Shown here: one piece after another, positions 35,302-57,696 of the stretch
Layout: each line of letters starts with the position of its first letter
How positions within the stretch are numbered: the stretch's first letter is position 1
Source: a bacterium
GTDB taxonomy: Bacteria > UBP14 > UBA6098
DNA: 60,923 nt
Direction: 5' to 3'
NCBI GenBank assembly: GCA_023145965.1
Contig: JAGLDC010000060.1
Location: 1-60,923 of the forward strand
Notes under the pieces: model-generated
Told to the model about the DNA's origin: nothing
What the model saw: the letters and a program-made list of their open reading frames with translations, nothing else
Database searches by the model: none
Made by a program: the position numbers and the translations under genes

Positions 35302-37326
35302 ATGCTTTACGTGCCGATAATAGGTGTTGTTGGAATTATTGCCGCAGGGATAATTTATCTTTACGTTATTAAACGCCCCCCCGGAAACGATAAGATGATA
35401 GAGATCGCCGAGATGATTCATAACGGGGCACTTGTGTTTCTTAAGAGAGAATATTCTACACTTCTCGTTTTCGTAATTGCGGTTTTCGCACTTATCGCCA
35501 TCTTTCTGAAAAACGAATATGTAGCTAACCTCGGGATTTATACCGCGATAGCTTTCCTCGCCGGCGCCGGATGCAGTATGCTCGCCGGTTTTTTAGGAAT
35601 GTCCGCCGCGACAAAAGCCAATGTGCGGACCTCGTGGGCCGCTAAATCTTTGGGACAGGGACCCGCGCTTCGCGTGGCGTTTTTCGGCGGAAGTGTCATG
35701 GGTTTGTCGGTCGCTTCCCTCGGTCTAATCGGCGTCGGGATTCTGTTTATGATTTTTTCTAAGGATTCCGCCGCATCGGCTATAATTAACGGTTTTGCCA
35801 TGGGCGCTAGCTCGATCGCGCTTTTCGCGCGTGTCGGCGGAGGGATTTTCACTAAAACCGCCGATATCGGCGCTGACCTAGTCGGCAAGGTCGAGGAGAA
35901 TATACCCGAAGACGATCCGCGTAATCCGGCAACTATTGCGGATAATGTCGGCGACAATGTCGGCGATGTGGCGGGCATGGGCGCGGATATTTTCGAAAGC
36001 TATGTTGGCGCAATAATCGCAACTATTTCAATTGCCGCTACTGCAACACTGACATCTTCCAATCCTGTAGTTAGGGAGATTGTCGGCAATCGCATCGGAT
36101 ACATGGGTTTTCCGCTGACTGTTGTTTCGATTGGGCTGTTGGCGAGTATAATCGGCATCCTTTTTTTAAGAGCATTAGAACGAATCTCGCCGGCATCTGC
36201 TTTGCGTTTGACAACATATATTGCTAACATCTTGCTTTTTGGAGGAACCGCGTTGGCGGTGCACCTTCTTCATATTCATTTCAATGTTTTTTGGTCGATG
36301 GTTGTAGGTTCGCTGGTGGGAATCTCAATCGGATTAATCGCCGAATACTACACCAGTAAAAAGCCAATCATCAGAATTGCTCAGTCCAGTGAAACAGGCG
36401 CAGCTACGAATATTATAAACGGTTTAGCTTATGGCATGGAATCGACCATGCTTCCGATAATCGCCATTTGCATCGCAATTTATGCAAGTTATCATCTTTC
36501 AGGGCTTTATGGAATTGGCATTGCTGCAGTCGGGATGTTGGCGACTGTCGGTATTACAATGAGTGTAGATGCATACGGCCCTATCGCCGACAATGCAGGA
36601 GGAATCACACAAATGAGCGGCCTTGGGCCAAAGGTTCGCAAGATAACTGACGAACTCGATTCTCTAGGAAATACAACTGCTGCTATGGGCAAGGGTTTCG
36701 CCATAGGTAGCGCGGCATTAACAGCTCTCGCCCTATTTTCGGCCTACACCCAAGCGGCAGGCTTATCATCGATAGACATCACAAAGCCGCTTGTCGTTAT
36801 CGGGTTGCTTTTAGGTGGTGGAATACCTTTTCTTTTCGCCAGTTTGACTCTTAGAAGCGTGGGAAAAGCCGCATTCGAGATGGTTAAAGAGGTTCGCAGG
36901 CAATTTAAGGAAATAACCGGGCTTAGAGAGGGCAATGCAAAGCCCGATGTTCGCCGCTGTATAGATATTTCAACACGCGCAGCGCTCAAGGAAATGATAA
37001 TTCCCGGCTTGATGGCTATTTTGACTCCAGTCATTGCTGGTTTTCTTTTAGGTGCAGAGGCGTTAGGTGGGATGTTGGCCGGTGCCACGCTTTCAGGTGT
37101 TTTGCTCGCCCTTTTTATGGCTAATTCCGGGGGTGCCTGGGATAATGCAAAAAAATATATAGAAGCGGGTAACTTTGGAGGCAAAGGCTCTGAAGCCCAC
37201 GCAGCAGCTGTGGTCGGGGATACGGTCGGAGATCCATTTAAAGACACCTCGGGGCCATCAATGAATATTCTTATCAAGCTTATGAGCGTGGTGAGCCTCG
37301 TGCTTGCGCCACTGCTTTTAAGATAA
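35302..37326 (+). CDS. hppA: Membrane-bound ion-pumping pyrophosphatase (K+-dependent, probably Na+ type)
   Basis: 674 residues with about 16 membrane segments. It couples PPi hydrolysis to cation export across the inner membrane. The pyrophosphate-binding motifs [27 protein letters not shown] and the C-terminal [17 protein letters not shown] are intact. Ala460 in GNTTAA, where K+-independent enzymes have Lys, predicts K+ dependence. Asp229 and Glu232 in ADIFESY match the gate glutamate position of Na+-PPases, so Na+ transport is my inference; H+ or dual transport is not excluded. A very strong SD (AAGGAGGT) precedes the ATG. Confidence 0.96.
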
Positions 37327-39690: not shown

Positions 39691-40191
39691 ATGATCAAGG
39701 AGTTTGAAGGGAAAAAGCCGGACTTCGAAAATAGCGCTTTCCTAGCGGAAAATGCCACTTTGATAGGTAATGTTCAGCTTGCCACAGATTCGAGTGTTTG
39801 GTTTGGCGCTGTCCTTAGGGCTGATCTTAACTCTATTATTGTCGGGAAGAGATCGAACATTCAGGACTTATGTGTTATTCATGTTGATACGGACAAGCCT
39901 GTGGTTATCGGTGAGGATGTTACTATCGGCCATTCGGCTACAATTCACGGAAGCACTCTGGAGGACAGATGTCTCATCGGCATGGGAGCTGTGATATTAG
40001 ATGGTGCAACAATAGGCACAGGCGCTATCGTTGCGGCAAATTCGCTAGTCCCTCCGGGTAGAAAGGTGCCGCCAAAAACCCTTGTTGCAGGAATTCCTGC
40101 TAAAACCTTGCGAGAACTTACAGATAAAGATTACGAGGACCTTAAACATCATGCGGAGAGCTATGTCGAACTTGCTAAAAGACATGCATAA
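39691..40191 (+). CDS. Gamma-class carbonic anhydrase-like hexapeptide-repeat protein
   Basis: 166 residues forming a left-handed beta-helix of hexapeptide repeats. The three zinc ligands His64 (VIHVD), His81 (IGHSA) and His86 (IHGST) are present, as are Arg43, Asp45 and Gln58 around the active site (VLRADL, NIQD). It is of the YrdA/CaiE/Cam family. Actual CO2 hydration is not assured, because many homologues lack the proton-shuttle loop, and the loop appears short here. It starts immediately after the DUF151 stop, with AGGAGGG upstream. Confidence 0.92.
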   Translation: MIKEFEGKKPDFENSAFLAENATLIGNVQLATDSSVWFGAVLRADLNSIIVGKRSNIQDLCVIHVDTDKPVVIGEDVTIGHSATIHGSTLEDRCLIGMGAVILDGATIGTGAIVAANSLVPPGRKVPPKTLVAGIPAKTLRELTDKDYEDLKHHAESYVELAKRHA

Positions 40192-41977
40192 GGTTTTTAT
40201 ATTACTTGCGTTAATCTCAACGAGCGCAGTTTTTGGGTGGGTCGATCCTCAATTCGTTGAAGGCTCATTTAAGTCTGCACTCGAAGTATTCCGAGGGGGC
40301 GATTATCAATCTTCCCACAAAAAATTTACTTCGCTTTTGATGGATTCCAGAGGCACCGAGCATTATTCGATGACCAAATTTATGGTGGCTTTGAGTTCCT
40401 ATCGTGATGGCAACTGGGAGGCTTCTGCTCGGGAGTTTGGAGATTATGTTAGGAGTTTTCCTGAATATCCAATCTCAGCAACTGCAAGATTATATCAGGG
40501 CAATGCATATTTCTTCATGGATGATTACATCAATGCCACCGAGGTGTATCTTGCCTCAGCGAAATTAGCTGGGGATGATATGCCGAAGGTTGCTGCGAAT
40601 GCAATGCAATCTTCTTCGAACCTTCTATGGGGTTACCTCACAGATGATCAGATTATGCTTCTTGCTGCACGTCTGGAAGGATCTTCTGGACAAATCGTAG
40701 ATTTTTATCGCGTTAAGCGTTTCCAATTTAGAGGGGAAAACCGTAGGGCCTTAGAACTATGCAATAGAAGCCTCGAAACTCGTGCGTTTGGAGTTTTTTC
40801 TGACAGTCTGAAGGTGCTTGCCAACACACTCAAAAACGCTATATCCGAAAAGATTAATATACTTGTCCTTGCCCCCACTGAAGGGGCTTATGCCGAATAT
40901 GGCAATAACATTGTCAACGGTGTTAAGATGGCGGTTGACAGGTTCTCGCGGGAAAAACGAATAAATATTGCGGTAATAACCGAGAACACAGCGGCCGATC
41001 CGCTGGTCGCGGCTTATGCTTGTAAAACTGCAATCGCTAAGAACTCACCTATCGCCGTTATTGGACCACTTCTTTCTGATGTTGCCGTGCCGGTGGCCAT
41101 ATATTGCGATCACGAGCACGTGCCATTGATACTTCCCACTGCCAGCAAGGATGGTCTCTCGGGTATATCGCCGTTTGTCTTTCAGCTCTCCTCTCCGCCA
41201 TCTGTCGGAGCGAAGACATTGGCACATTTTGCTTTTGATTCGCTTGCTGTTACTCGTTTTTCGGCCTTGGCGCCGGATGATCCCATTGGCAGAAAAGCCG
41301 TTGACCTTTTTGTGAAAGAGGTCGAGGCCCTTAATTGTGAGATGCTAAGTGTGGCCTATTACGCCGAGGGCACCATAGATTTTTCAGAGCATTTACAGGC
41401 TATTAAAAAGCCATATTTCGATGAGGCTAAGCGCTTTTTTCCGCATGCCGATACCACGGATACTCGTTTTTATAAACCCAACCATTCCATGCGTAATGAA
41501 GAGGAATGGATTGTCGATATTCCCGGATTTTTCGTTCCGGCCTATTATGATGATCTTGTAAATATTATTCCTCAAGTTCCGTTTAATTATATTCGACCAA
41601 GATTTCTAGGCGAAAACGGCTGGATAATCGACCAGCTTAAAACGATGAATGGCTCACAGATCGACAGCGCCGTTGTCGTTCCCGATGATTTTTGGGTCGA
41701 TGAAGGAAGCTCTATATGGACGAGTTTTTCAAAAGAATATAAAAAATCTTTCGGTGTCAATCCGGACAGAATTGCCGCACTTGGATTTGATTCTGCCAAA
41801 CTCATACTTCGCGGAATCGATAAGGGGCTTATCACACCGGAACAACAGAGGGATTTCCTTTCTGCCACAAACGATTTCTCCGGCACCAGCGGAGATATTA
41901 GCTTCGATGAAATGGGCACCAATTTCGATGTTTCATTAGTGCGGTTTAATAGGAATATTCCGGAGAAGATCAGGTGA
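40163..41977 (+). CDS. Periplasmic TPR plus type-1 ligand-binding-fold protein (LpoA-like architecture)
   Basis: About 604 residues: signal peptide; a TPR-like N-terminal region to about residue 225 (ALEVFRGGDYQSSHKKF, ARLYQGNAYFFMDDYINATEVY); then a periplasmic-binding-protein fold (INILVLAPTEGAYAEYGNNIVNGVKMA, AVIGPLLSDVAVPVA, IAALGFDSAKLILRG). This order matches LpoA, the outer-membrane activator of penicillin-binding protein PBP1A, but there is no lipobox. A soluble solute receptor is the alternative. The frame is open to 40082. I choose the ATG at 40163, with GGAGAG 5 nt upstream, inside the 3' end of the previous gene; the ATG at 40184 is a second option. Confidence 0.82.
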   Translation: MSNLLKDMHKVFILLALISTSAVFGWVDPQFVEGSFKSALEVFRGGDYQSSHKKFTSLLMDSRGTEHYSMTKFMVALSSYRDGNWEASAREFGDYVRSFPEYPISATARLYQGNAYFFMDDYINATEVYLASAKLAGDDMPKVAANAMQSSSNLLWGYLTDDQIMLLAARLEGSSGQIVDFYRVKRFQFRGENRRALELCNRSLETRAFGVFSDSLKVLANTLKNAISEKINILVLAPTEGAYAEYGNNIVNGVKMAVDRFSREKRINIAVITENTAADPLVAAYACKTAIAKNSPIAVIGPLLSDVAVPVAIYCDHEHVPLILPTASKDGLSGISPFVFQLSSPPSVGAKTLAHFAFDSLAVTRFSALAPDDPIGRKAVDLFVKEVEALNCEMLSVAYYAEGTIDFSEHLQAIKKPYFDEAKRFFPHADTTDTRFYKPNHSMRNEEEWIVDIPGFFVPAYYDDLVNIIPQVPFNYIRPRFLGENGWIIDQLKTMNGSQIDSAVVVPDDFWVDEGSSIWTSFSKEYKKSFGVNPDRIAALGFDSAKLILRGIDKGLITPEQQRDFLSATNDFSGTSGDISFDEMGTNFDVSLVRFNRNIPEKIR

Positions 41978-41981
41978 TAGA

Positions 41982-42182
41982 ATGACAAATGAACCTTTAT
42001 TGAAATTAAAAAACCCGAACGGCTCTACTCAAGAAATAACGATAGAGCAACTTTGCGTGAGTAATCACATCACTTATCAAGCTTTAGTAGCGGTTTTGGT
42101 TAGGAAAGGTATAATCTCGGAAGATGAGCTTCTCGAAGAGGTAAAGCGTGTCCAGAATTTGAGATTTGACGAAAATGGATAA
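41982..42182 (+). CDS. Small conserved-looking protein of unknown function
   Basis: 66 residues, soluble, no recognised domain. A helical C-terminal half reads VLVRKGIISEDELLEEV, a pattern often used as a small helix-turn unit. AGGTGA lies before the ATG, it starts 5 nt after the previous gene and overlaps the next by 8 nt, which supports a real gene in the operon. Confidence 0.65.
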   Translation: MTNEPLLKLKNPNGSTQEITIEQLCVSNHITYQALVAVLVRKGIISEDELLEEVKRVQNLRFDENG

Positions 42183-42588
42183 GTTTTCCTGGGTAAATCG
42201 GCCTTCGGGGGAGTTTCGAGGACGCAAGATTTTTGGAATCATTGTTATCGTGCTAACCGGTATAGTTGTTTTTTGGGCATCAGAGAACAATTGGTTTTTT
42301 TCGGTAATTGCGGTTTTTTTAATGGTTTTTGCCTCGTCGAGATTTTATTTTAGGACATACTTTTATGCCGATGATATAGGTGTAGGCGAAAAATTTATGG
42401 GATATTCCAGAACAAGAAAGTGGAAGGAGTTCCGACGGGTCGATGAAGGAAACAAGGCTGTTTTTCTTTCGACCTTCGAGACACCTCGGCGCATGGATAA
42501 TTTTCGTGGGTGGTTTATTCCTACACCATCGAGCGAGGTGAAGGAGTTTATTATTAGGAAAGTCCGAGAGACTCATAAACCCAAATAA
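42175..42588 (+). CDS. Small membrane protein with PH-like domain
   Basis: About 137 residues. Two adjacent hydrophobic segments (about 19-57: IFGIIVIVLTGIVVFW and FFSVIAVFLMVFAS) are followed by a strand-rich domain (YFYADDIGVGEKFMGYSRTRKWKEFRRV...VFLSTFETPRR) resembling bacterial PH-like domains of the YdbT/bPH type. The role is unknown. An in-frame TTG at 42166 is possible, but the ATG at 42175, overlapping the previous stop, is preferred. Confidence 0.72.
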   Translation: MDKFSWVNRPSGEFRGRKIFGIIVIVLTGIVVFWASENNWFFSVIAVFLMVFASSRFYFRTYFYADDIGVGEKFMGYSRTRKWKEFRRVDEGNKAVFLSTFETPRRMDNFRGWFIPTPSSEVKEFIIRKVRETHKPK

Positions 42589-42606
42589 AAGGGATTTGGA
42601 GGTTTT

Positions 42607-42975
42607 ATTATCAAGGATAATTTCTGGAATGTCGATTGGGAAAGCGAATTTTCCGCCGAACTTTCGGAGGAAGAGCTGGCGCTATTTGATAAGGTCTCCA
42701 TGGAGATTGCAAAGCGCCAGTTGACTGTTCCGGCTCTTATGATAATCGAGGGGTTTAAGCCACTGAATTGGATTGGCAGCCAGTTTATGTTACTTTTAGA
42801 GCCATTTACTGTATATATTTTCAATGTTAAGCAGATTCAAACTTTGCGTAGGGCACTTCAAAAGCGCGAGGCGATGGAAGAGCTTGCCAAACGAATAGAA
42901 AAAGCCGATGTGAAATACGGCCCAAAAAAGAAAAAAAAGGCCAAAAAGAGGAGCCCAGATGAACAAAAAACCTGA
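42607..42975 (+). CDS. Small soluble protein, probable ATT or ATC start codon
   Basis: About 122 residues. The part from the ATG at 42700 is an obvious coding frame. The same frame continues upstream without a stop to 42589 and reads as protein (DNFWNVDWESEFSAELSEEE), but has no ATG, GTG or TTG. A strong GGAGG (42598-42602) sits 4 nt before ATT (42607) and 7 nt before ATC (42610), so initiation at one of these is likely. The N-terminal part is acidic, a hydrophobic patch lies in the middle and the C terminus is a Lys-rich tail (KKKKKAKKR). No family is recognised. It overlaps the MutL-family gene by 17 nt. Confidence 0.7.
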   Translation: MIKDNFWNVDWESEFSAELSEEELALFDKVSMEIAKRQLTVPALMIIEGFKPLNWIGSQFMLLLEPFTVYIFNVKQIQTLRRALQKREAMEELAKRIEKADVKYGPKKKKKAKKRSPDEQKT

Positions 42976-44827
42976 GGATATCAAGATTATTCTTGCAACG
43001 GACTGCGGTTCGACGACAACGAAGGCTATTTTGATTATGCTTCAAGAAAACGAATACAGGCTTGTCGTTCGTGGCGAAGCGCCTACCACGGTCGAGGCGC
43101 CATTCGAAGACGTAACGATGGGTGTTCTTAATGCAGTAACCGAGGTTTCCGAGCTCGCGAATAGGGAGCTTGTCGGCAAAGACGAGATGATTATACGCCC
43201 CTCTTCTGGAGAAAAGGGGACGGATATTTATATTTCGACATCGAGCGCTGGTGGTGGCCTTCAGATGATGGTTGCCGGTGTTGTCAGAAGCATGACTGCG
43301 AAATCGGCTGAGAACGCCGCTCTCGGTGCCGGAGCTATTGTGATGGATGTTATTGCTTCAAATGATAAGCGTCTTCCGCACGAGCAGATCGAGCGCATAC
43401 GCCAACTCAGACCAGACATGATACTTCTTTCCGGCGGCATCAATGGAGGCACTGTTACTCATGTTGTAGAGCTTGCAGAGCTTATAGGTGCAGCCGATCC
43501 AAAACCGAGACTCGGAATAGGATATCACCTTCCGGTCATCTATGCAGGAAACAAGGACGCAAGGGATAATGTGAGCGGCATACTTGCGGAAAAAGTTGAT
43601 TTGCGCATTGTCGATAATATTCGCCCTACTCTTGAAGAGGAGAACCTCAAACCGGCGCGAGAGATGATACATAATCTCTTTATGGAACATGTTATGGCTC
43701 AGGCTCCGGGGTATAAGAAGCTTATGAGCTGGTCGGATGCCCCAATTATGCCTACGCCGGGAGCTGTCGGTCTTATTATGAAGCGGGTCGCAGACGAAGA
43801 GGGTATTCAGGTTTTGGGTGTTGATATCGGCGGCGCAACCACCGATGTTTTCAGTGTTTTCAAAAATCCATCTTACGATATTCACAAGGATGAGAACGAA
43901 ATCGATAATCCCAAAACGATATTCAATCGCACAGTATCAGCTAACCTCGGGATGAGTTATTCGATAAGCAATGTTTTTAAGGAAACTGGAATCGCGAATA
44001 TTATGCGTTGGGTGCCGTTCAAGATGGACGAAGTAGTTCTTCGCAATCAGGTAAAAAACAAAATGATACGTCCGACGACTATTCCACAGGCCATGGAAAC
44101 ACTGATTTTCGAACAGGCTGTCGCGCGTGAAGCTTTGAGGTTGGCTTTCATTCAGCATAAGAATTTCGCGACCACCTTGAAAGGCGTTCAGAAGAAGCGC
44201 ACCATATCGGAAACCTTCGAGCAAACCGACAGCGATACGCTGGTCGATCTAATGGGATTGGATATTCTCATAGGTTCGGGTGGTGTGCTTTCGCACGCCC
44301 CTAAGCGCAACCAAGCGGCCATGCTCATGCTCGATGCCTTCCAGCCACAGGGCATTACCATGCTTGCTGTCGATTCGATTTTTATGATGCCTCAACTCGG
44401 CGTTCTTTCGACTATACATCCTAAGGCTGCCACCGAGGTTTTCCATAATGACTGCCTTATTTATCTCGGCACCTCGGTATCGCCGAGAGGTACAACCAAA
44501 AAAGGACATGCAGTAGGTCATTATAAGATCGAGTTGCCGTCCGGTGAGATTCATGAGGATGAGCTTATTTTTGGAGAGATGAAGAGATTCCCACTTGAGA
44601 TCGGAGAGAAAGCGAAACTCACTTTTGACTGCTCGCGCGGGTTCGATTGTGGCGAGGGTAGCGGAAAGAAAGTCGAGCGTGAGATTTATGGTGGTATTGT
44701 TGGTGTTATTCTCGATGGAAGAGGCCGTCCTCTTCACATACCAGAAGTCGAAGCCGAGAGAGTTACCGCGCTGAAAAATTGGCTCTTAACTCTCGAAGTT
44801 TACCCCGAAGACGCTCTCAACGGTTAA
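42959..44827 (+). CDS. MutL (glutamate mutase L) family ASKHA-fold protein
   Basis: 622 residues. Two phosphate-binding signatures of the actin/hexokinase/Hsp70 fold are visible: ATDCGSTTTKAIL (about 13-25) and GVDIGGATTDVFSV (about 289-302), plus LLSGGINGG and GSGGVLSHAP. The family is named from clostridial glutamate mutase operons, where MutL is thought to reactivate the B12 enzyme. No mutase (MutS/MutE) or other B12 enzyme is encoded in this window. Here it is paired with the barrel-sandwich protein 16 nt downstream, which probably acts with it. AGGAG precedes the ATG. Confidence 0.9.
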   Translation: MNKKPEDIKIILATDCGSTTTKAILIMLQENEYRLVVRGEAPTTVEAPFEDVTMGVLNAVTEVSELANRELVGKDEMIIRPSSGEKGTDIYISTSSAGGGLQMMVAGVVRSMTAKSAENAALGAGAIVMDVIASNDKRLPHEQIERIRQLRPDMILLSGGINGGTVTHVVELAELIGAADPKPRLGIGYHLPVIYAGNKDARDNVSGILAEKVDLRIVDNIRPTLEEENLKPAREMIHNLFMEHVMAQAPGYKKLMSWSDAPIMPTPGAVGLIMKRVADEEGIQVLGVDIGGATTDVFSVFKNPSYDIHKDENEIDNPKTIFNRTVSANLGMSYSISNVFKETGIANIMRWVPFKMDEVVLRNQVKNKMIRPTTIPQAMETLIFEQAVAREALRLAFIQHKNFATTLKGVQKKRTISETFEQTDSDTLVDLMGLDILIGSGGVLSHAPKRNQAAMLMLDAFQPQGITMLAVDSIFMMPQLGVLSTIHPKAATEVFHNDCLIYLGTSVSPRGTTKKGHAVGHYKIELPSGEIHEDELIFGEMKRFPLEIGEKAKLTFDCSRGFDCGEGSGKKVEREIYGGIVGVILDGRGRPLHIPEVEAERVTALKNWLLTLEVYPEDALNG

Positions 44828-46299: not shown

Positions 46300-49101
46300 A
46301 TGCACCTTCCGAAAGTGAGGGTCCTTGCCTTGTATATGGCTATTACTTGGGCCTTACTAAGCCTTTCGGGGTGTGTTCAGGAATCGACGGCACCTGCCGT
46401 TCCAACCGGTGTCCAAGTTACAGACATCCCAGCCGACGACGGAACAAATATCGTTCTTGCTTGGAGGCATTATAAAGCCTCTATTGCTAAGCAATATCAA
46501 GTATATTATTCCGTTGCGAAAGATTCTCTCGAAAATGAGGATCTCACCGATGAACTGACTCCATTAACGAGGTCGGTTCAGGTTGCTGTTACCACCCAAA
46601 TCGACACAATTGCCGATAATGTTTGCGATCTGGATTACTACATCGTCCTGGATAACCCCTCGAGCGAAAACCCGGGAGTAAGTTTAGTTAAAGCCACCAG
46701 CGAAAATAGAGATTCGCTTGCCTCTATCGGCGAGAAAGTTCTTCAAGTAGAAAGCGAACTTGCGCCTTTAGATCAAGATTCCAAGAAAATCGTCTTCGCT
46801 CAAGGCAATTTTTATCGTATTCAGTTGCCTGACAACGCTGAAGAGACGATTAAAACGACCATAGAAAATGCTACACTCGCTACCGACTCAACTGGTTTGA
46901 CCATTGTCGAAGGCAATAACTCACTCATATTCGAAGTGGGTATGGCACCAGAAGAAAAAGCATTCCGTGAAGCCGGCGAGAGGATACTCGAATTCGATCC
47001 TTCGATGAGTGAGTATTTCTTCAAGTATGGTAATAAGATAGTTGCTATCGTAACCGAGGATAAAAGATACACCCTCGATTTCGATGTTGTTCAAACTATA
47101 ATCCGCGGAACTATCGACCCCGGGACAAATTATTTTTACAAAATCGTCGCTAAAGATGGAAAATCTTCATCCTCTACTGAGATTATGGAATTCACTGCAG
47201 TCGATGAACCACCGGTTCCAGCCAGTGATATTTCGGCTCGTTTCGATTCTGAACGAGGTGAGGTATTTTTCTCTTGGATGGGTTATATGCCCAGTCTAGG
47301 GGCATTTAAGGATATCCACGACTATTCTATCCATCGTTATTCGCCCTCAGATTCTACAATGGATGCTGGCGAGGTAGTGGGAACTTATGCTCCGGATTTC
47401 GGAAATGCTATCATCAAAGGAACATTCTCAGAAGATGATATGTTCTATATAGCGACTCGCGATAATTCAGAGCATCGCACCGTTAGTGAGCCTTTCGCCT
47501 TGGTGGTTGACAAATTCTCCCCTCCAGCTCTTATCGAACCTTTGGATGTTGTCGATGTCAAGAATGACGATGGCTCAGCGCTTTCGATTCACTGGGGTGT
47601 TCCTCAAATAGCGCTCGATATAGTTATTACCGATCCTTTACCTCAGTTCGAGGATAGAGAAATACCCGCCAATTACTATTTAATCCCAACCGAAACCGGC
47701 CATAAGCTGACTCAATTCGAGCCGGGAGATAGCCTTATCCCGCCATCTGCCTCTCCGGTCCTAGGTATTCAACAAACCGAGATAGCGGACAGGTTCGATG
47801 TAACAGCTTCGTATCGCATGTATGTCAACGATGACCATGATGTATTTTATGCGAAGCTTAAGCTCGACGATGGCAAGTTTGTAAACGATTTCAATAATGT
47901 TGGTTCATTCATTTTCCAAGGATTAGAGGCTGGCGAACATACATTTGAAGCGGTTCTCCTGAACTCTGCAGGCAAGGATCTCGAAAATCCTGATGCACGG
48001 ATTTCGAGAACTCTTATTGTAGATCACCCCGGGGCATTCCGTAGCGAAAAGGATGAAGAATATATCGAGATATGGCGCGGCAATACTGAGATAAAAAAGG
48101 ATGAAGATATCTTACTCGATGGCGTTCCGGGATTCGATCCTGAAAACAAGTATACCTTCCAGCTATTTGGCATGGCAGAGTTAATCGACAAGCAACTTAA
48201 AGATTCATATCCAGATAGTTTACGAGACAAGGGAGAGTATTATTATTTCGTTCGAGAAATCGGTCCTGACGGTTCTTTTTCGGATAGCAAGATTTTTGGG
48301 CCTATAACGCCTCGCTCTCAGTTCTTCCATTCCGAGAAATCCATGGTATTGGCGCTTGTAATTCTGTTCATAGCTTTCGTTAATATATTCCTACATCTGG
48401 CTCGTAAAGGGCAGAATTTCTATCTTCGCCCAATCGCTGGAATTGCTCATCTCGATGAGGCACTGGGAAGAGCTACAGAGATGGGAAGACCGATACTATA
48501 TGTTCTCGGTCTCACGGGAATCAGCGACATCGCAACGCTGGCCGGTCTTACTATTCTTGGCCGAGTTGCAAAGAAATCCGCTGAGTTTCAGACGAGAATA
48601 CTCGTTCCTTGTGTTGACCCAATTGTTATGATTGTGGCGCAAGAGACGGTGAAGACTGCTTGTATGGATGCTGGAAGACCGGATATGTATAATGAGGACG
48701 ATGTCTTCTATGCTGCCGGCAGCCAGTTTTCCTATGCTGCGGCTGTAGCTGGTTTGATGGTTAGGCACAAAACAGCAGCTAATTTCTACATGGGCATGTT
48801 CTTTGCCGAGTCGCTAATTCTGACTGAAACCGGTTCGATGACCGGTTCGATTCAGATAGCTGGCACAGATGCAGTCACGCAGATACCGTTCTTTATTACG
48901 ACTTGCGACTATACGCTTATCGGAGAAGAGCTTTATGCTGCCTCAGCCTATCTCTCGAAAGATCCACTTCAGGTCGGGACACTCAAAGCCCAGGATATGC
49001 TTAAAGTTATCTATATGCTGCTCATCGTTCTTGGGACGGTCGCCATGACCACCGGGTTCATGTGGTTTGTTAACCTATTTAAAATCCGGCTGGAACAATA
49101 A
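46300..49101 (+). CDS. Lipoprotein with FN3-like repeats and membrane-embedded DUF6754-type domain
   Basis: 933 residues. It starts with a lipoprotein-like signal (LSLSGC), then an extracytoplasmic region to about residue 680 containing FN3-like strands (VPTGVQVTD...NIVLAWRHY; VDVKNDDGSALSIHWGVP). A membrane segment lies at about 682-703, then a domain (710-933) with RPIAGIAHLDEALGRATEMGRPILYVLG, GSQFSYAAAVAGLM and TETGSMTGSIQIAGTDAV, and a last membrane segment. The C-terminal domain matches what I know as DUF6754, a family of unknown function in candidate phyla. The ATG at 46300 is chosen because AAAGGAG lies before it and it yields the lipobox; the frame is open further upstream. It is the first gene of a four-gene membrane operon. 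Confidence 0.82.
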   Translation: MHLPKVRVLALYMAITWALLSLSGCVQESTAPAVPTGVQVTDIPADDGTNIVLAWRHYKASIAKQYQVYYSVAKDSLENEDLTDELTPLTRSVQVAVTTQIDTIADNVCDLDYYIVLDNPSSENPGVSLVKATSENRDSLASIGEKVLQVESELAPLDQDSKKIVFAQGNFYRIQLPDNAEETIKTTIENATLATDSTGLTIVEGNNSLIFEVGMAPEEKAFREAGERILEFDPSMSEYFFKYGNKIVAIVTEDKRYTLDFDVVQTIIRGTIDPGTNYFYKIVAKDGKSSSSTEIMEFTAVDEPPVPASDISARFDSERGEVFFSWMGYMPSLGAFKDIHDYSIHRYSPSDSTMDAGEVVGTYAPDFGNAIIKGTFSEDDMFYIATRDNSEHRTVSEPFALVVDKFSPPALIEPLDVVDVKNDDGSALSIHWGVPQIALDIVITDPLPQFEDREIPANYYLIPTETGHKLTQFEPGDSLIPPSASPVLGIQQTEIADRFDVTASYRMYVNDDHDVFYAKLKLDDGKFVNDFNNVGSFIFQGLEAGEHTFEAVLLNSAGKDLENPDARISRTLIVDHPGAFRSEKDEEYIEIWRGNTEIKKDEDILLDGVPGFDPENKYTFQLFGMAELIDKQLKDSYPDSLRDKGEYYYFVREIGPDGSFSDSKIFGPITPRSQFFHSEKSMVLALVILFIAFVNIFLHLARKGQNFYLRPIAGIAHLDEALGRATEMGRPILYVLGLTGISDIATLAGLTILGRVAKKSAEFQTRILVPCVDPIVMIVAQETVKTACMDAGRPDMYNEDDVFYAAGSQFSYAAAVAGLMVRHKTAANFYMGMFFAESLILTETGSMTGSIQIAGTDAVTQIPFFITTCDYTLIGEELYAASAYLSKDPLQVGTLKAQDMLKVIYMLLIVLGTVAMTTGFMWFVNLFKIRLEQ

Positions 49102-49110
49102 GGAGGCCCC

Positions 49111-49767
49111 ATGCTTTGGAAAAAACAAATACCACTTGCAATAACATTTATAATGGGGTTGATATTCGGAGTCCAGTATTTCGTTCCGCATAGAATTAGC
49201 GATGCTATCTTCAATACCTATATCGATTGGGGTATTGTTATCGGGATTTTTGGCGGAATTCTAGCTTATATCAGCTTCTATCGCGCCCATGCGATGAGAA
49301 TCAAGAAAAAGGCACCTGCATGGCCGTATTCGCTCGTTGCTATAACTATTTCTGTAGTGATGATCCTGTTTGGCTTCATTAAGGGCACAGAGTCGGGCAC
49401 GGTTTTCTCGAACATGTATTTCTACATTCTTGTTTCTATCGAGGGGACTATGTTCAGCCTTTTGGCTTTTTACATCTCGAGTGCAGCCTATAGGGCTTTT
49501 CGCGCTCGTAGTGTACAAGCCACAGCGCTTCTTATTGCCGCTATCATCGTTATGCTTGGAAGAATTCCCTTAGGCGAACAATTAAGCGTATGGAAATACA
49601 TCTGGCATGGCGCACCATCATTCCCAGATATTGCTAACTGGATATTAAATGTCCCTAACATGGCCGCTAAGAGAGCGATGCAACTTGGCATTGGACTTGG
49701 AATTATGATGCTTAGTCTTAAGATCGTTCTCGGTATTGAGCGTTCATATATGGGTAGCGGAGATTAA
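49111..49767 (+). CDS. Polytopic membrane protein of the DUF6754-type operon
   Basis: 218 residues with about six hydrophobic segments (near 9-27, 40-58, 69-89, 100-124, 135-152, 188-208). No recognised family. It starts 9 nt after the first gene with AAGGAGG upstream and lies 11 nt before the next, so the proteins are probably subunits of one inner-membrane complex. Nothing in it suggests a transporter family I can name. Confidence 0.8.
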   Translation: MLWKKQIPLAITFIMGLIFGVQYFVPHRISDAIFNTYIDWGIVIGIFGGILAYISFYRAHAMRIKKKAPAWPYSLVAITISVVMILFGFIKGTESGTVFSNMYFYILVSIEGTMFSLLAFYISSAAYRAFRARSVQATALLIAAIIVMLGRIPLGEQLSVWKYIWHGAPSFPDIANWILNVPNMAAKRAMQLGIGLGIMMLSLKIVLGIERSYMGSGD

Positions 49768-49778
49768 GGGAGTATGAA

Positions 49779-50618
49779 ATGGCAGAAATGAAACAAGAAA
49801 ATACATTCTGGGAACGATTAATTCAAATAGACAGACGAATTATCTATGTGATTATCGCTCTCGCTATGATACTTCCCTTCTTCTTCCAGATGGGTTTACC
49901 TATTCCGGCAACCAAGGAGGTTAAAGATGTTTATGATCTTATCGAAGGTTTTAAACCCAACGATGTAGTTGTTTTATCGGCGGACTTTGATCCTTCGGTT
50001 TCTCCTGAGCTGTTGCCCATGTTCGATGCACTGTTCAGGCATTGCTTAAAGACTGACGTTAAAGTTATCGCTATGAGCCTTTATATTCAGGGCCCTGGTC
50101 TTATAGAGCCGGTTATACATCAAGCGGCGAAAGACTATAATAAAACTAACGGCCTGGATTATGCATTCCTTGGGTGGCAATATGGATACAGTCTTGTGGT
50201 AATCAACATGATGGAGGACCTCAAGAGAACCTTCCCCATCGATTATTATGGGACTCGCACCGATGATTTACCTGTACTCCGCGGCGTGGACAATTACAGC
50301 GATTTCGATCTTATCACATCGATGAATGGATCGTCTATGTATTTGACATGGTTATTATATGCGCACGAGCCATATAATGTTGCCCTAGCCTGTGGAGTAA
50401 CGGCGGTTTCAGCGGCGGATGTATATCCATACATCCAGTCCGGTCAATTTGTCGGAATGCTCGGAGGTCTCAAGGGTGCGGCCGAATATGAAACTCTTAT
50501 TGGTGAGAAGAGAATGGCTACGATGGGCATGGAAGCACAGAATTGGGCTCACATTATCATCATACTATTCATAATCATAGGAAATATCGGCTACTTAATA
50601 ATAGGCAGAAAAAAATAG
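49779..50618 (+). CDS. Membrane-anchored extracytoplasmic Rossmann-like protein of the DUF6754-type operon
   Basis: 279 residues: a cytoplasmic N-terminal stretch, one membrane segment (about 23-43, YVIIALAMILPFFFQMG), a soluble alpha/beta domain (50-255, beginning VVVLSADFDPSVSPELLPMFDALF and with KVIAMSLYIQGPGL and VALACGVTAVSAADV), and a C-terminal membrane segment (258-276). Conserved features include DLITSMNG and GQFVGMLGGLKGAAEYE. The function is unknown. Two membrane anchors with the domain outside the cytoplasm suggest sensing or assembly at the periplasmic face, which is inference. Confidence 0.78.
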   Translation: MAEMKQENTFWERLIQIDRRIIYVIIALAMILPFFFQMGLPIPATKEVKDVYDLIEGFKPNDVVVLSADFDPSVSPELLPMFDALFRHCLKTDVKVIAMSLYIQGPGLIEPVIHQAAKDYNKTNGLDYAFLGWQYGYSLVVINMMEDLKRTFPIDYYGTRTDDLPVLRGVDNYSDFDLITSMNGSSMYLTWLLYAHEPYNVALACGVTAVSAADVYPYIQSGQFVGMLGGLKGAAEYETLIGEKRMATMGMEAQNWAHIIIILFIIIGNIGYLIIGRKK

Positions 50619-50629
50619 GAGGAATGAAC

Positions 50630-51259
50630 ATGCATATTTCCACAAATCCATGGGTATGGCTCGGCGTGTTCTTCACCCTCAGCGTGTTGAGCTTTCTGTA
50701 CAAGGATAATCCCTTTTACAAACTGGCGGAGCATGTGACGGTTGGAGTTTCCATCGGTTACGGCATCGTCATCTGGTGGACAAACACAGTCTATCCGAGG
50801 TTTATAATACCCGTATTCGAGAACGGTGAATTCGTTCTTATCATCCCGGCAATTCTCGGTCTTATGATGGTTCTTAGGATTGTGCCAAAGTGGAGCTGGC
50901 TATCGCGATATGCTATATGTTTCACAGTCGGCGCAGGCGCAGGCATGGGCATACCAAGAAGTATGCAAGCCTCTGTGCTTAGGCAGTTAGAGGCAACCAT
51001 GCTACCTTTAAGTTTCACATCGACAACCGGAATCAATAACATCGTTATATTTATCGGTGTTTTGACAGTTCTTATTTACTTCTTCTTTTCGAAGGAGCAT
51101 AAGGGCCTTTTCGGGGGCGTTGCTAAAATTGGCATCTGGTTTTTAATGGTCGGATTCGGTGCGACATTCGGTTACACAGTGATGGCGCGTCTTTCGCTGT
51201 TTATCGGACGCGTGCTTTTCATCCTCCAAGATTTCCTTGGAATAAACCTCGCTGGATAA
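50630..51259 (+). CDS. Polytopic membrane protein of the DUF6754-type operon
   Basis: 209 residues with about six membrane segments, including WVWLGVFFTLSVLSFLY, VGVSIGYGIVIWW and FVLIIPAILGLMMVL. The frame overlaps the previous gene upstream, but TAGGAGG at 50615-50621 with 8-nt spacing points to the ATG at 50630; the ATG at 50624 is too close. Between predicted helices 4 and 5 lies a conserved-looking polar loop (GMGIPRSMQASVLRQLEAT). No family is recognised. It is the last membrane subunit of the four-gene set. Confidence 0.78.
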   Translation: MHISTNPWVWLGVFFTLSVLSFLYKDNPFYKLAEHVTVGVSIGYGIVIWWTNTVYPRFIIPVFENGEFVLIIPAILGLMMVLRIVPKWSWLSRYAICFTVGAGAGMGIPRSMQASVLRQLEATMLPLSFTSTTGINNIVIFIGVLTVLIYFFFSKEHKGLFGGVAKIGIWFLMVGFGATFGYTVMARLSLFIGRVLFILQDFLGINLAG

Positions 51260-51262
51260 GAA

Positions 51263-51958
51263 TTGCGCGTTACACTCTTGAAAATAATTGCGGTGCTTGC
51301 TTTCGCAAGCGCCGCAATTTCTTTGGACCCACCAGATAAAAAAATAATGGAAGGATTCTTCAAAGAAAGACTCTCAAAGACCTCAGATAAAAAAATAATA
51401 GAAGGATTCTTAAAAGAAAGACTCTCCAAAACCTCGACTTGGACTGCTAATGTCCATTGCAAAGTAATATTCAATGATGAAACTACTGTCGATACAGTCG
51501 ATTCGGGATTTACCTGGGATTTATCAGGATCGAGCCAGGCATTTTCATTCTCGGGTATTCCTTATTCACTCGATGCGGAGGATTTTTTAACTCCAATAAA
51601 ACTGGCAGCATCGGATATCGATTCGGTTGCGGTCAACAAATCGCGCACACGATTCGATGGAATAATGTGCTGGAAGGCTAGATTTTATAAGGATAATACT
51701 TGTTATGAAATTTTGTTTTCCGGCGATGGTTTATTCAAAGTAATTAAGATGGAGCGAAAAAATCGAGGTAAAGCCAATTCTGATGATATTTGGCTTTTTA
51801 AACAGGTAGGGCGCGATAAGGATATTCCGGTTAAGATGACTCGCTCGGTAGAATTCGGATGGGGTGAGGATGGAAGCGGAATAATATCCACTGTCGAGCT
51901 TATGGATTTTCACGAAGTTTCCTCGGAAAGCGTCCCTTTAGATAATACATCGCAATAG
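51263..51958 (+). CDS. Secreted protein with recent internal duplication (LolA-like strands possible)
   Basis: 231 residues. The start is TTG at 51263, 3 nt after the previous stop; it is chosen because it produces a clean signal peptide (VTLLKIIAVLAFASAAIS). Residues 25-58 are two near-identical 17-residue helical repeats (DKKIMEGFFKERLSKTS and DKKIIEGFLKERLSKTS). The rest is strand-rich (TWTANVHCKVIFNDE, MCWKARFYKDNTCYEILFSGDGLFKVIKMER) and recalls LolA/LolB-like lipoprotein carriers, but that is a weak guess. The 3' end overlaps the convergent gene at 51900 by 59 bp. Confidence 0.75.
   Translation: MRVTLLKIIAVLAFASAAISLDPPDKKIMEGFFKERLSKTSDKKIIEGFLKERLSKTSTWTANVHCKVIFNDETTVDTVDSGFTWDLSGSSQAFSFSGIPYSLDAEDFLTPIKLAASDIDSVAVNKSRTRFDGIMCWKARFYKDNTCYEILFSGDGLFKVIKMERKNRGKANSDDIWLFKQVGRDKDIPVKMTRSVEFGWGEDGSGIISTVELMDFHEVSSESVPLDNTSQ
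51335..51436 (+). repeat. 51-bp in-frame tandem duplication
   Basis: Units 51335-51385 and 51386-51436 differ at only five positions, three of them synonymous-type changes. The unit encodes a 17-residue charged helix at the mature N terminus of the secreted protein. Confidence 0.9.
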
Positions 51959-54276: not shown

Positions 54277-57200
54277 CTATTTCAAAAGCACTGCACGCGA
54301 AGTGCTCACCATACTTGGATTTATATAACGAACTAAATAAATCCCTGAGGCGCAAGAAAATCCGTCATCTGAGATGCCATCCCATATAATAGAAGTCTCA
54401 GCAAGTTTTTTCGCGACGAGCCTTCCTGATATATCATATATCTCGATATGAGACTCACTCGATATATCGCCTTTAAGCTCGATGTGCAAAGCCGAGTTGA
54501 AGGGATTTGGAAAAACTTGAAGGGTAATATCCTTGGGTAGATCGAGACACGCCTCTATCGAAGTAGTAAAATCCGTTCCGGGACAGTAAAGCGTTATATC
54601 ATCGAGAAAAATACCTTCGTTTTCGTCATCGGCATCGCTGGTAAAACGAAAATAAACCTCAATACTATCACCCGGCGCAAAGGGCAGGTTTTCAAGGCTA
54701 TATCTATACTCCGACCAACCAATAATGAAACTCAGTAAAGCACCACCGCTACCAATATAGTCAAGCTCCACTGTATCTGCGGAACCGGCAATCTCGATAT
54801 GAAGACCATCGGAACCATAATTAGGAAACTGTGCATGCGCCCAAAATCTTAACTCTGCTTTATCTCCGATAACAAATTTAGTTGTTCTAAGAAGATCATC
54901 TAAATTGGAAACATAGGCACCTATAGAGAGATGGCCGCAATACCAAGCTAAAGAGCCGCTGTGTGCACGCCTTGTGCTACGATGCCAGTAGGTTGTCGGG
55001 TTCAACACAAACGGAAACTCCGAAGCTTCGACATCCGTAGTAAACCCAAGTGGCATCGTTGCCAGATAAAGTGTTTCCGGAGGATTAGGCGTCCATTGTG
55101 TGACAAGCGGAACAATGGGTTTAGGACTGACACCAGAAGCCCACGAGACATCAAAAACATTAATATGGGCTGTATCACCCGGAAGATAATGGTATGATGT
55201 AGTTACCGGCGAACCAACTATGTCGAGTTCACCCCCCGGGCAATTTACTGAAACTGTTGCCGTCGAAGCCCAACCTGTGCCACTATTTACCCAATCAATA
55301 AGAAGGTTCGCGCTCTCGCCGGGATCGAGAATCGAATCGACACCACTGAGAGCCACTCCTCCAAATTTCATTCGTGCAGTATTGATCTCAATCGAAATGG
55401 GAAATCCTAACTCACCCATAGAGGAAGAGATTCCAGGATTTATTATCAAGGAAGTATCGCCAATAATATCGGTTGGAATAGAAAATGTAGCCGAGAAAAA
55501 TACGCTATCGCCAACGGCGAGAGTCTCCGGTGGTTCCACAGTCGAAAGCGGCCCAACGAAATTTGCAGAAGGAGACCAAAAAAGCCCGCTTATAAACGAA
55601 TCAAACTCGCCCAGTCCAAAAACAACCTCGACAGTATCGCCAGCATCGGCACGAAAATCGTGTAAACCATAGGAATCCGAATAATCCCAGCGGAAATAAC
55701 CCTCACCTGTCGGAGTAGTAATAGTATCAATTGCCATACCCTCGCTTCCATACCGAGCAACTAGAAAAATAGGAGGAGAACCACCGGCGATAGATAAACG
55801 CGCAAAACCCGACGGATCCGAAATCGAGTCATCGAGAAGACCATAATTATCGTAAGCGGAAACTACTGCACCCATCACAGGCATACCATAAGGAGTTTCT
55901 ACGCCTACACCAACATCGGCGCCCTCCAAATCATAGCTAATTTCTATGGGCGAATATCCGGTAATAGCTCCTGTAGCCGGATCGCCAATAATATTGACCT
56001 GATAAATAACCCAGCGCCATATATTTTCCCATCGAGCAAAAGGCACATATCGCGCTTTGGCTATATCCAGCCCTGAACCGAGTGTGAAATTACCATCAAA
56101 AATCTCCTCCCAAAAGGCTTTGTCTAAAACCTCAGAGTATCCGCGCCCAACATTTCCAGGGGAACCCCAACCATAACGACTGTTGCCGATAAAGGCAACA
56201 CCACCTCCACTCGGATTATTCACAAAATGCTCGGCAAAACAATCTTTATCAAAAGCAGCCGGCCAGCAACCTATGGAAAACAATATCGAAGGTCTAGCAT
56301 AATTAACCAGTAAGTCCATCTCGGTGAGATAAATACAGCTTCCATGATCTACACATAAAACCGCAGAGTTGGCATGGCCAACATGGTTTACAAGGTTTGG
56401 ACCTGTGTTCAAACTATCGAAAGCGCTTTCAGCGTTGCCACCCATTGTGCTATATACCTTTCCAAAATCAAAATAGTCCGGGAAAACATTCGCTATAAGA
56501 TCATCATTAAACTCACCGCCATCGGTGTAGGGATCATCCCACATAACTTGCCCGATCATAAGTCCGCTTTTCGCAAAATCCTCTGAAGGAATCGATTCGT
56601 AAGTAATTAGCTTATCAATTAAACCCAGTAACTCCTCAGAAGAACTGAGCGAGAACCTCCCAACATGAACATCCGGAAACATATCAATCGAGTCCTCGAG
56701 CTCGCCATAGATAATATCGCCATCGAAATTCCAGTTGCCATCGAGATCGCTGTAATAAAGATCTGCACGAATTTCGTTCTCGTCATCATAGAAATCAGCC
56801 TCAGAATCCATAGCATAAACTGTTCTAGCTGGCACAAGATTGGTATCACCAATTAAGAGGACATAAACAATACCCAGTTCCTCATATAATTCGATTATCG
56901 AATTCCTTATCTTCTCTGCATTATCGACTCCCGCGAAGCTAGAATAAATATCGGAAATGATAAGCGTTGTATCGCGAAGCCCACAGCTTCGCCTCAAATC
57001 CAAAAGCTCAGAAGTATATCCAGCGAGTGAATAGGGGGTTATAACTGCCCAGTCGTAAGCCGAAGAATCAACATGATAAGTGTAACTATTTATCTCCTCA
57101 GGATTCAAAACAAGGCCGGCAACTGCTTTTTTCCACAACCTATCCCCAAAAGGCGTTCTGCGTGATGGAGCAATATAAACAGAGGACTCGTATTCCAACC

Positions 57201-57696
57201 TCACCCTCGCACTTGCTAAATACTCGCATATCCCCGCTGAAGGATTCCATCTTATTGGAGAATAACTTATCGAGGCCAAAGAAAAACCAGAAAGATTGCC
57301 ACGAAATGCATCTATCATAGGATTCTCAGGGAACCAGCGATCCTCGATATAATAAGATTCATCACAAGGAATAATCCCTCGAGTTGGACAGGATAAAATT
57401 GCCGGTGGTTGAGCCGGAAAAGGCATGCCCTCTGCTAAATACTCCCACCTTTCCGATTCAATGCTCGCCCGAATAAGTCCCATGCCCTGAGGCAAAAGCA
57501 CAATAACCGCCTCAGCTAAAACCTGAGGCGAACCAGACTCCCCATAAATTATACATTCATCAGAATATACCCGCACAAAATCGCCCGTTTCAACTAAGAA
57601 CTCCGAACGCGAATTCTCTATCGAAAATTCATACACACCAGCAGAAATGGGTGAAACTAAAATTAACACAATAAACGAAAGTAAGATTATGAACAC
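54277..57696 (-). CDS. Gingipain-like C25 cysteine protease with FlgD-like C-terminal sorting domain
   Basis: 1139 residues: signal peptide (1-19), an N-terminal propeptide-like region (to about 205), the C25 catalytic domain (about 215-560), Ig-like regions, a jelly-roll-like domain (about 880-1050) and a FlgD-Ig sorting domain (about 1060-1139: FPNPFNS, IYDISGRLV, WDGISDDG, ASGIYLVRY, LLK). The catalytic dyad is visible as His441 in NHVGHANS and Cys477 in FSIGCWPAAFD. It is predicted to be exported as a surface or secreted protease; the sortase PorU of type IX systems is also a C25 protein, but PorU has no sorting domain of its own. The start is GTG at 57696, with TTGGAG about 5 nt upstream. 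Confidence 0.92.
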   Translation of the reverse strand: MFIILLSFIVLILVSPISAGVYEFSIENSRSEFLVETGDFVRVYSDECIIYGESGSPQVLAEAVIVLLPQGMGLIRASIESERWEYLAEGMPFPAQPPAILSCPTRGIIPCDESYYIEDRWFPENPMIDAFRGNLSGFSLASISYSPIRWNPSAGICEYLASARVRLEYESSVYIAPSRRTPFGDRLWKKAVAGLVLNPEEINSYTYHVDSSAYDWAVITPYSLAGYTSELLDLRRSCGLRDTTLIISDIYSSFAGVDNAEKIRNSIIELYEELGIVYVLLIGDTNLVPARTVYAMDSEADFYDDENEIRADLYYSDLDGNWNFDGDIIYGELEDSIDMFPDVHVGRFSLSSSEELLGLIDKLITYESIPSEDFAKSGLMIGQVMWDDPYTDGGEFNDDLIANVFPDYFDFGKVYSTMGGNAESAFDSLNTGPNLVNHVGHANSAVLCVDHGSCIYLTEMDLLVNYARPSILFSIGCWPAAFDKDCFAEHFVNNPSGGGVAFIGNSRYGWGSPGNVGRGYSEVLDKAFWEEIFDGNFTLGSGLDIAKARYVPFARWENIWRWVIYQVNIIGDPATGAITGYSPIEISYDLEGADVGVGVETPYGMPVMGAVVSAYDNYGLLDDSISDPSGFARLSIAGGSPPIFLVARYGSEGMAIDTITTPTGEGYFRWDYSDSYGLHDFRADAGDTVEVVFGLGEFDSFISGLFWSPSANFVGPLSTVEPPETLAVGDSVFFSATFSIPTDIIGDTSLIINPGISSSMGELGFPISIEINTARMKFGGVALSGVDSILDPGESANLLIDWVNSGTGWASTATVSVNCPGGELDIVGSPVTTSYHYLPGDTAHINVFDVSWASGVSPKPIVPLVTQWTPNPPETLYLATMPLGFTTDVEASEFPFVLNPTTYWHRSTRRAHSGSLAWYCGHLSIGAYVSNLDDLLRTTKFVIGDKAELRFWAHAQFPNYGSDGLHIEIAGSADTVELDYIGSGGALLSFIIGWSEYRYSLENLPFAPGDSIEVYFRFTSDADDENEGIFLDDITLYCPGTDFTTSIEACLDLPKDITLQVFPNPFNSALHIELKGDISSESHIEIYDISGRLVAKKLAETSIIWDGISDDGFSCASGIYLVRYINPSMVSTSRAVLLK

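Follow-up and report, generated by a model that had tools for sequence, protein, structure and literature searches.

The contig JAGLDC010000060.1 (60,923 nucleotides (nt); assembly GCA_023145965.1, UBP14, UBA6098), analysed over its whole length and here called the window, encodes a DUF6754 membrane protein (A), two polytopic membrane proteins (B and D) and a twice-anchored membrane protein (C). An initial annotation had described these as four genes with 9–11 nt spacing, and this was confirmed: all four open reading frames (ORFs) lie on the + strand within 46300-51259, with gaps of 9, 11 and 11 nt at A/B, B/C and C/D. Four upstream genes, which we name x1, x2, MutL and P376, complete the following set (aa, amino acids; TM, transmembrane).

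x1: 42166..42588, + strand, 140 aa; two TM segments, then a soluble domain that is PH-like only by eye (hydropathy, alignment)
x2: 42610..42975, + strand, about 120 aa; motif RQLTVPAIxFLExxKPLN (family alignment, start comparison)
MutL, long form: 42959..44827, + strand, 622 aa; PF13941 match with the motifs DCGSTTTK, DIGGATTD and GSGGVLSH
P376: 44843..45973, + strand, 376-aa cytosolic protein (co-occurrence with DUF6754)
A: 46300..49101, + strand, 933 aa; PF20539 match, predicted topology, conserved residues
Parts of A, + strand: exported, lipoprotein-like ectodomain 46378-48342; TM1 48343-48399; Pfam match 48313-49077; TM2 49006-49062
B: 49111..49767, + strand; six-TM protein that follows A in nearly all loci (hydropathy, family alignment)
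C: 49779..50618, + strand; Rossmann-like α/β extracytoplasmic domain flanked by two TM helices (AF2 model)
D: 50630..51259, + strand; six to seven TM, conserved R187 and R194 near the C-terminal membrane segments (alignment, hydropathy)

The DUF6754-type domain proposed for A is borne out by a match of residues 672-926 to PF20539 (E 2.6e-112, 374.6 bits), above the curated Pfam cut-off of 27 bits. Topologies of x1 and A–D were predicted from hydropathy, and for A–D also from the positive-inside charge rule. For protein A, the prediction gives a signal peptide containing a lipobox-like LSGC, and TM helices at aa 682-700 and 903-921; its ectodomain is predicted to lie outside and the DUF6754 domain, between the two helices, in the cytoplasm. 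The earlier description of A as a lipoprotein-like FN3 protein holds for its first part, whereas the FN3 part is weak: Pfam fn3 is not matched in the window's A, two relatives have weak matches in the ectodomain (E 0.01-0.02), and the family profile weakly matches Titin and the IL-13 receptor (E 0.0045-0.6). Mean column identity reaches 51% in the DUF6754 domain (47 aligned rows) versus 33% in C, and invariant polar residues of the aligned stretch include R67, R179, E194, E200, Q209, E234 and D256. The domain is near-constant in length, whereas the ectodomain ranges from almost nothing (L089, the shortest A noted, 266 aa) to about 750 aa. A Shine-Dalgarno-like AGGAGAAAGG precedes the start ATG of A at 46300; a Shine-Dalgarno sequence also precedes D, for which the in-frame ATG at 50624 is a less likely start because of its spacing to GGAGG.

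Of the two membrane proteins first described as six-helix, B has six predicted TM segments and D six or seven, and both have conserved charged residues in or near these segments. Homology between B and D was considered and not accepted (hhalign probability 2-14%). Protein C has TM helices at aa 21-39 and 257-275 with the intervening domain predicted outside, and AlphaFold2 (AF2), given input alignments 12-15 rows deep, modelled that domain as an alternating α/β (Rossmann-like) fold (mean pLDDT 83.6, pTM 0.80), in agreement with its annotation as a twice-anchored extracytoplasmic α/β protein. The matches that Foldseek returned for this model from the PDB were Rossmann-like but unspecific, and none reached E≤0.001. 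The suggested relationship between the soluble domains of A and C found no backing at sequence level in hhalign (probability 1-3%) or permutation (p 0.16-0.68), and the AF2 model of the DUF6754 domain is of too low quality for a structural comparison (pLDDT 54.8); what A and C share is the look of alternating α/β folds. No family was found for B, C or D in Pfam or NCBIfam, and no reliable relative of any of the four proteins among PDB profiles. The expectation that A–D have no known transporter or secretion relative was thus upheld, in Pfam, NCBIfam and PDB profiles for all four and in Foldseek for C only.

The protein encoded by MutL matches PF13941 over the full model (E 1.4e-130, 436.6 bits), and in the alignment of MutLs from this system the phosphate-1, phosphate-2 and adenosine motifs are invariant or ≥90% conserved. 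Judged from these motifs, MutL is probably an ATP-binding ASKHA ATPase with putative hydrolysis. The window's protein scores 246.5 bits against NF040745 (GlmL), 238.4 bits against NF040744 (OraC-like) and 178.6 bits against TIGR01319 (glmL_fam), below all three curated cut-offs (475, 600 and 204 bits, respectively). Five further system MutLs also fall below them, whereas the GlmL cut-off is exceeded by the operonic GlmLs L147 and L148. In a tree with long branches, whose deeper placement is rough, system MutLs form one clade (support 100/93) apart from the GlmLs of B12-mutase operons; this clade also takes in one further long-form MutL, that of G102, a genome that is 85% complete. The GlmLs L147, L148 and L153 have B12-binding and MutE genes on either side, and L149 lies beside an aminomutase. 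The neighbours of system MutLs are x1, x2, P376 and ABCD, with no B12-binding or mutase gene among those examined, and there are no Rfam matches, cobalamin riboswitch included, in the window or seven related loci.

P376 is strongly conserved across families (62% mean column identity), and its matches to PDB profiles are weak (E 0.03-0.05): the N-terminal part to the RpoC region at residues 393-466, the C-terminal part to the SPT5 KOW region. P376, x1 and x2 belong to no Pfam, NCBIfam or PADLOC family. The x1 profile matches 19 ORFs, which adjoin x2 or MutL, and x2 adjoins MutL in most loci; in the window the 3′ end of x2 overlaps the MutL start. By sequence comparison x2 likely has a non-ATG start near 42607/42610. 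The region 42598-42615 offers no ATG, GTG or TTG at the start conserved in the window's family; the position holds an Ile codon (ATC in the window and L027, ATA in L024) versus ATG in the sister lineage L019. GGAGG lies 5-7 nt upstream of the Ile codon in the window and L027; in L024 an in-frame GTG occurs three codons before it. Translation may begin at a rare AUC/AUU codon, as it does in infC.

A survey of DUF6754 neighbourhoods across phyla, set beforehand as a check, revealed strongly conserved gene order. The order A-B-C-D recurs in UBP14, Cloacimonadota, Coatesbacteria and many further families, and is more than chance since these families are distant. The full run x1-x2-MutL-P376-A-B-C-D occurs in UBP14 and G081, and also in G084 and G097, where it has a second cassette in tandem. 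Other genomes carry x2-MutL-P376-A-B-C-D (G027, G050, G127), A-B-C-D-x2-MutL-P376 (G134), x2-A-B-C-D-MutL-P376 (G023), x1-x2-A-B-C-D (G019) or C-D-MutL (G075). That the genes are linked again and again in varying order points to selection, and less to an ancestral neighbourhood that stayed frozen. Clustering of neighbours found no ninth member, that is, no further family nearby in most lineages.

The gene set is also inherited jointly. DUF6754 is present in 16/17 genomes of the window's phylum, 46/145 sampled relatives and 111/386 genomes overall, and extends to 63 families outside the window's phylum (our own count from the 386-genome table). The sampled genomes are mostly drafts and nearly all diderm where tested, and this frequency is therefore not that of bacteria at large. 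A restriction of the domain to diderms was considered and set aside: Omp85 occurs in 45/46 DUF6754-positive genomes, but does not discriminate carriers because 137/145 of all genomes have it. C was found in 47/145 genomes, 46 of which carry DUF6754. Among the 386 genomes, DUF6754 (111) and P376 (106) occur together in 104, with DUF6754 alone in 7, P376 alone in 2 and neither in 273 (phi 0.94, Fisher p 8e-83; this and all other co-occurrence counts are without kinship correction), and several of the exceptions are incomplete genomes. Long-form MutL and DUF6754 coincide in 103 genomes of the same set, with 8 and 3 having one alone (phi 0.93, by our own classification of matches). The initial annotation had seen four subunits without an ATPase; the A–D membrane set is real, but the unit was drawn too small, since an upstream ATP-binding protein, MutL, tracks A–D across genomes.

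Eight MutL-P376 fusion proteins of 862-1015 aa, paralogues of the separate proteins (L106-L113), are good evidence that the two work as a pair. The fused paralogues lie at a distance from ABCD; their genomes carry the system as well, and three UBP14 copies are near TsaE-like and DUF2085-like genes (names by eye). Leaving these paralogues aside, the usual genome has one MutL, one P376 and one to six DUF6754 genes, as in G117, where six DUF6754 genes accompany a single MutL and a single P376. Together with the variable ectodomains of A, these copy numbers suggest that one cytosolic service module is shared by several membrane complexes whose heads are exchangeable.

Based on these observations, we propose, with confidence that is evenly balanced, that A–D form the membrane half of a conserved system of eight genes, x1-x2-MutL-P376-A-B-C-D, in which MutL-P376 would act on ABCD. 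The four proteins would assemble in the cytoplasmic membrane, probably around a core of B and D. The domain of C and the ectodomain of A would face the outside, and the highly conserved DUF6754 domain would face the cytoplasm; A, C and the predicted membrane topologies are compatible with such a membrane-spanning complex. The cytosolic MutL-P376 pair, anchored by x1 and/or x2, could dock on the DUF6754 domain, and ATP binding and hydrolysis by MutL would change the state of the membrane complex. The most likely step, by analogy, would be a resetting or reloading of ABCD, as is thought for GlmL with B12-dependent mutases. A single service module (MutL-P376-x1-x2) may serve several ABCD complexes distinguished by their A ectodomains.

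Several points weigh against this proposal. The resetting step is drawn from GlmL, described as a chaperone for glutamate mutase reactivation (PMC4682846), whose reactivating role is itself cited by analogy with the diol dehydratase reactivase (PMC4682846). No fusion joins MutL or P376 to any of A–D, 25 runs consist of A-B-C-D only, and in many loci the two modules lie apart. In five genomes that have ABCD or DUF6754 (G045, G073, G092, G232, G270), P376 or a full MutL was not detected, and G022 (loci L080, L096, L131 and L145), which is about 100% complete, has three ABCD cassettes and P376, but MutL was not detected there. ATP power may therefore not always be needed.

Among alternative explanations, an ATP-driven transporter or secretion machine survives best, although we consider it unlikely. 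Here P376 would couple hydrolysis by MutL to substrate movement through B and D, C would receive or gate the substrate outside, and the A ectodomain would handle cargo. In its favour are two polytopic subunits with conserved charges near or in their membrane segments, an ATP-binding partner and cassettes with different ectodomains. Similarity to transporter or secretion families is, however, lacking in Pfam, NCBIfam and PDB profiles, and ASKHA-fold ATPases are not known to drive translocation.

A trans-membrane sensor or adhesion relay, in which A ectodomains bind ligands or the wall and signal via ABCD to the DUF6754 domain, to be read or reset by MutL-P376, appears improbable. None of the members has a kinase, cyclase or chemotaxis domain, and some A proteins, such as that of L089, have almost no ectodomain. 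The relay would nevertheless account for a variable ectodomain beside a near-invariant cytosolic domain that is far more conserved than C, for the several cassettes per service module, and for the Ig/FN3-like hints in the weak ectodomain matches.

We find it harder to believe that ABCD is autonomous and ATP-independent, as the initial annotation had read it, with MutL-P376 being separate housekeeping genes. The A-B-C-D-only runs and the few DUF6754 genomes without P376 or MutL fit that idea, but the near-perfect co-occurrence and the linkage re-formed in different orders speak against it. That MutL is an ordinary GlmL reactivating a B12-dependent mutase, placed beside ABCD by accident, is very improbable, because despite its PF13941 membership it falls in the separate clade and below every NCBIfam GlmL cut-off, with neither B12-binding or mutase genes among the neighbours examined nor Rfam matches in the window or seven related loci. 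An ABCD complex on which MutL-P376 would act remains our preferred reading, and neither remote homology to a known transporter or secretion family (Pfam, NCBIfam, PDB profiles) nor a loss of gene order was found that would speak against the apparent undescribed, conserved multi-subunit envelope complex first suspected at this locus.

Other genes surround the system. Gene E (51263-51958) follows D and contains a tandem 51-bp duplication (51333-51434, 92% identical) that adds 17 residues; upstream of x1 lies a TPR and Peripla_BP_6 fusion (40154-41977) that is syntenic in several UBP14 genomes. Both are recurrent only in UBP14. Glycine-cleavage P-protein genes stand directly 5′ of x1 or x2 in four genomes (L072, L077, L095, L120), with GcvH also present in L072. 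A membrane H+-pyrophosphatase (35302-37326; PF03030, E 1.8e-264) is encoded a few genes upstream. Elsewhere in the window are a C25-family peptidase with a Por secretion tail, the type IX secretion C-terminal domain (54277-57696), and, on the minus strand, a very long ORF (4317-19484; 5055 aa).

DUF6754, which more than a quarter of the 386 sampled genomes carry, marks an eight-gene, ATP-linked membrane system without a described function. If joint inheritance reflects a complex, a major part of the envelope biology of the carrier bacteria has been missing, and the system would couple an actin/Hsp70-fold ATPase to membrane proteins in a new way. Candidate interaction partners, as well as profiles for annotation elsewhere, follow from the gene set, its order variants and the fused pair.

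Compared with known systems, A is a full-strength member of DUF6754 (PF20539), but Pfam covers this domain only and leaves the partners B, C, D, P376, x1 and x2 without a family. We found no paper naming DUF6754, PF20539 or PF13941 in a literature search outside of which lay subscription literature and preprints. A role in anti-phage defence was considered and rejected, as none of the eight proteins matches a PADLOC model. No relative of A–D beyond DUF6754 was found in Pfam, NCBIfam, PADLOC or PDB profiles. System MutLs share the ASKHA fold family and ATP-site motifs with GlmL/MutL of glutamate mutase and the OraC-like protein of ornithine aminomutase (PF13941; NF040745, NF040744, TIGR01319). 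Unlike these, they have membrane-gene neighbours, form their own clade, score below all NCBIfam cut-offs and measure about 570-650 aa, versus 449-510 aa for most GlmL-type proteins compared. The PilM-PilN platforms of type IV pili likewise place a cytosolic actin-like protein on a membrane complex with extracytoplasmic domains; the likeness extends to the general plan only, and no PilM, PilN, pilin or secretin was found among the system proteins (Pfam, NCBIfam) or the recurrent neighbour clusters inspected. We tentatively suggest, with somewhat less than even confidence, a class of envelope machine without earlier description, spread over at least 63 GTDB families beyond the phylum of the window, in which an ASKHA-fold MutL-type ATPase and P376 would energise or reset modular inner-membrane A–D complexes, one cytosolic engine serving different extracytoplasmic heads, by a coupling unlike that of ABC, AAA+ and other Walker-type systems or of systems driven by the proton-motive force.

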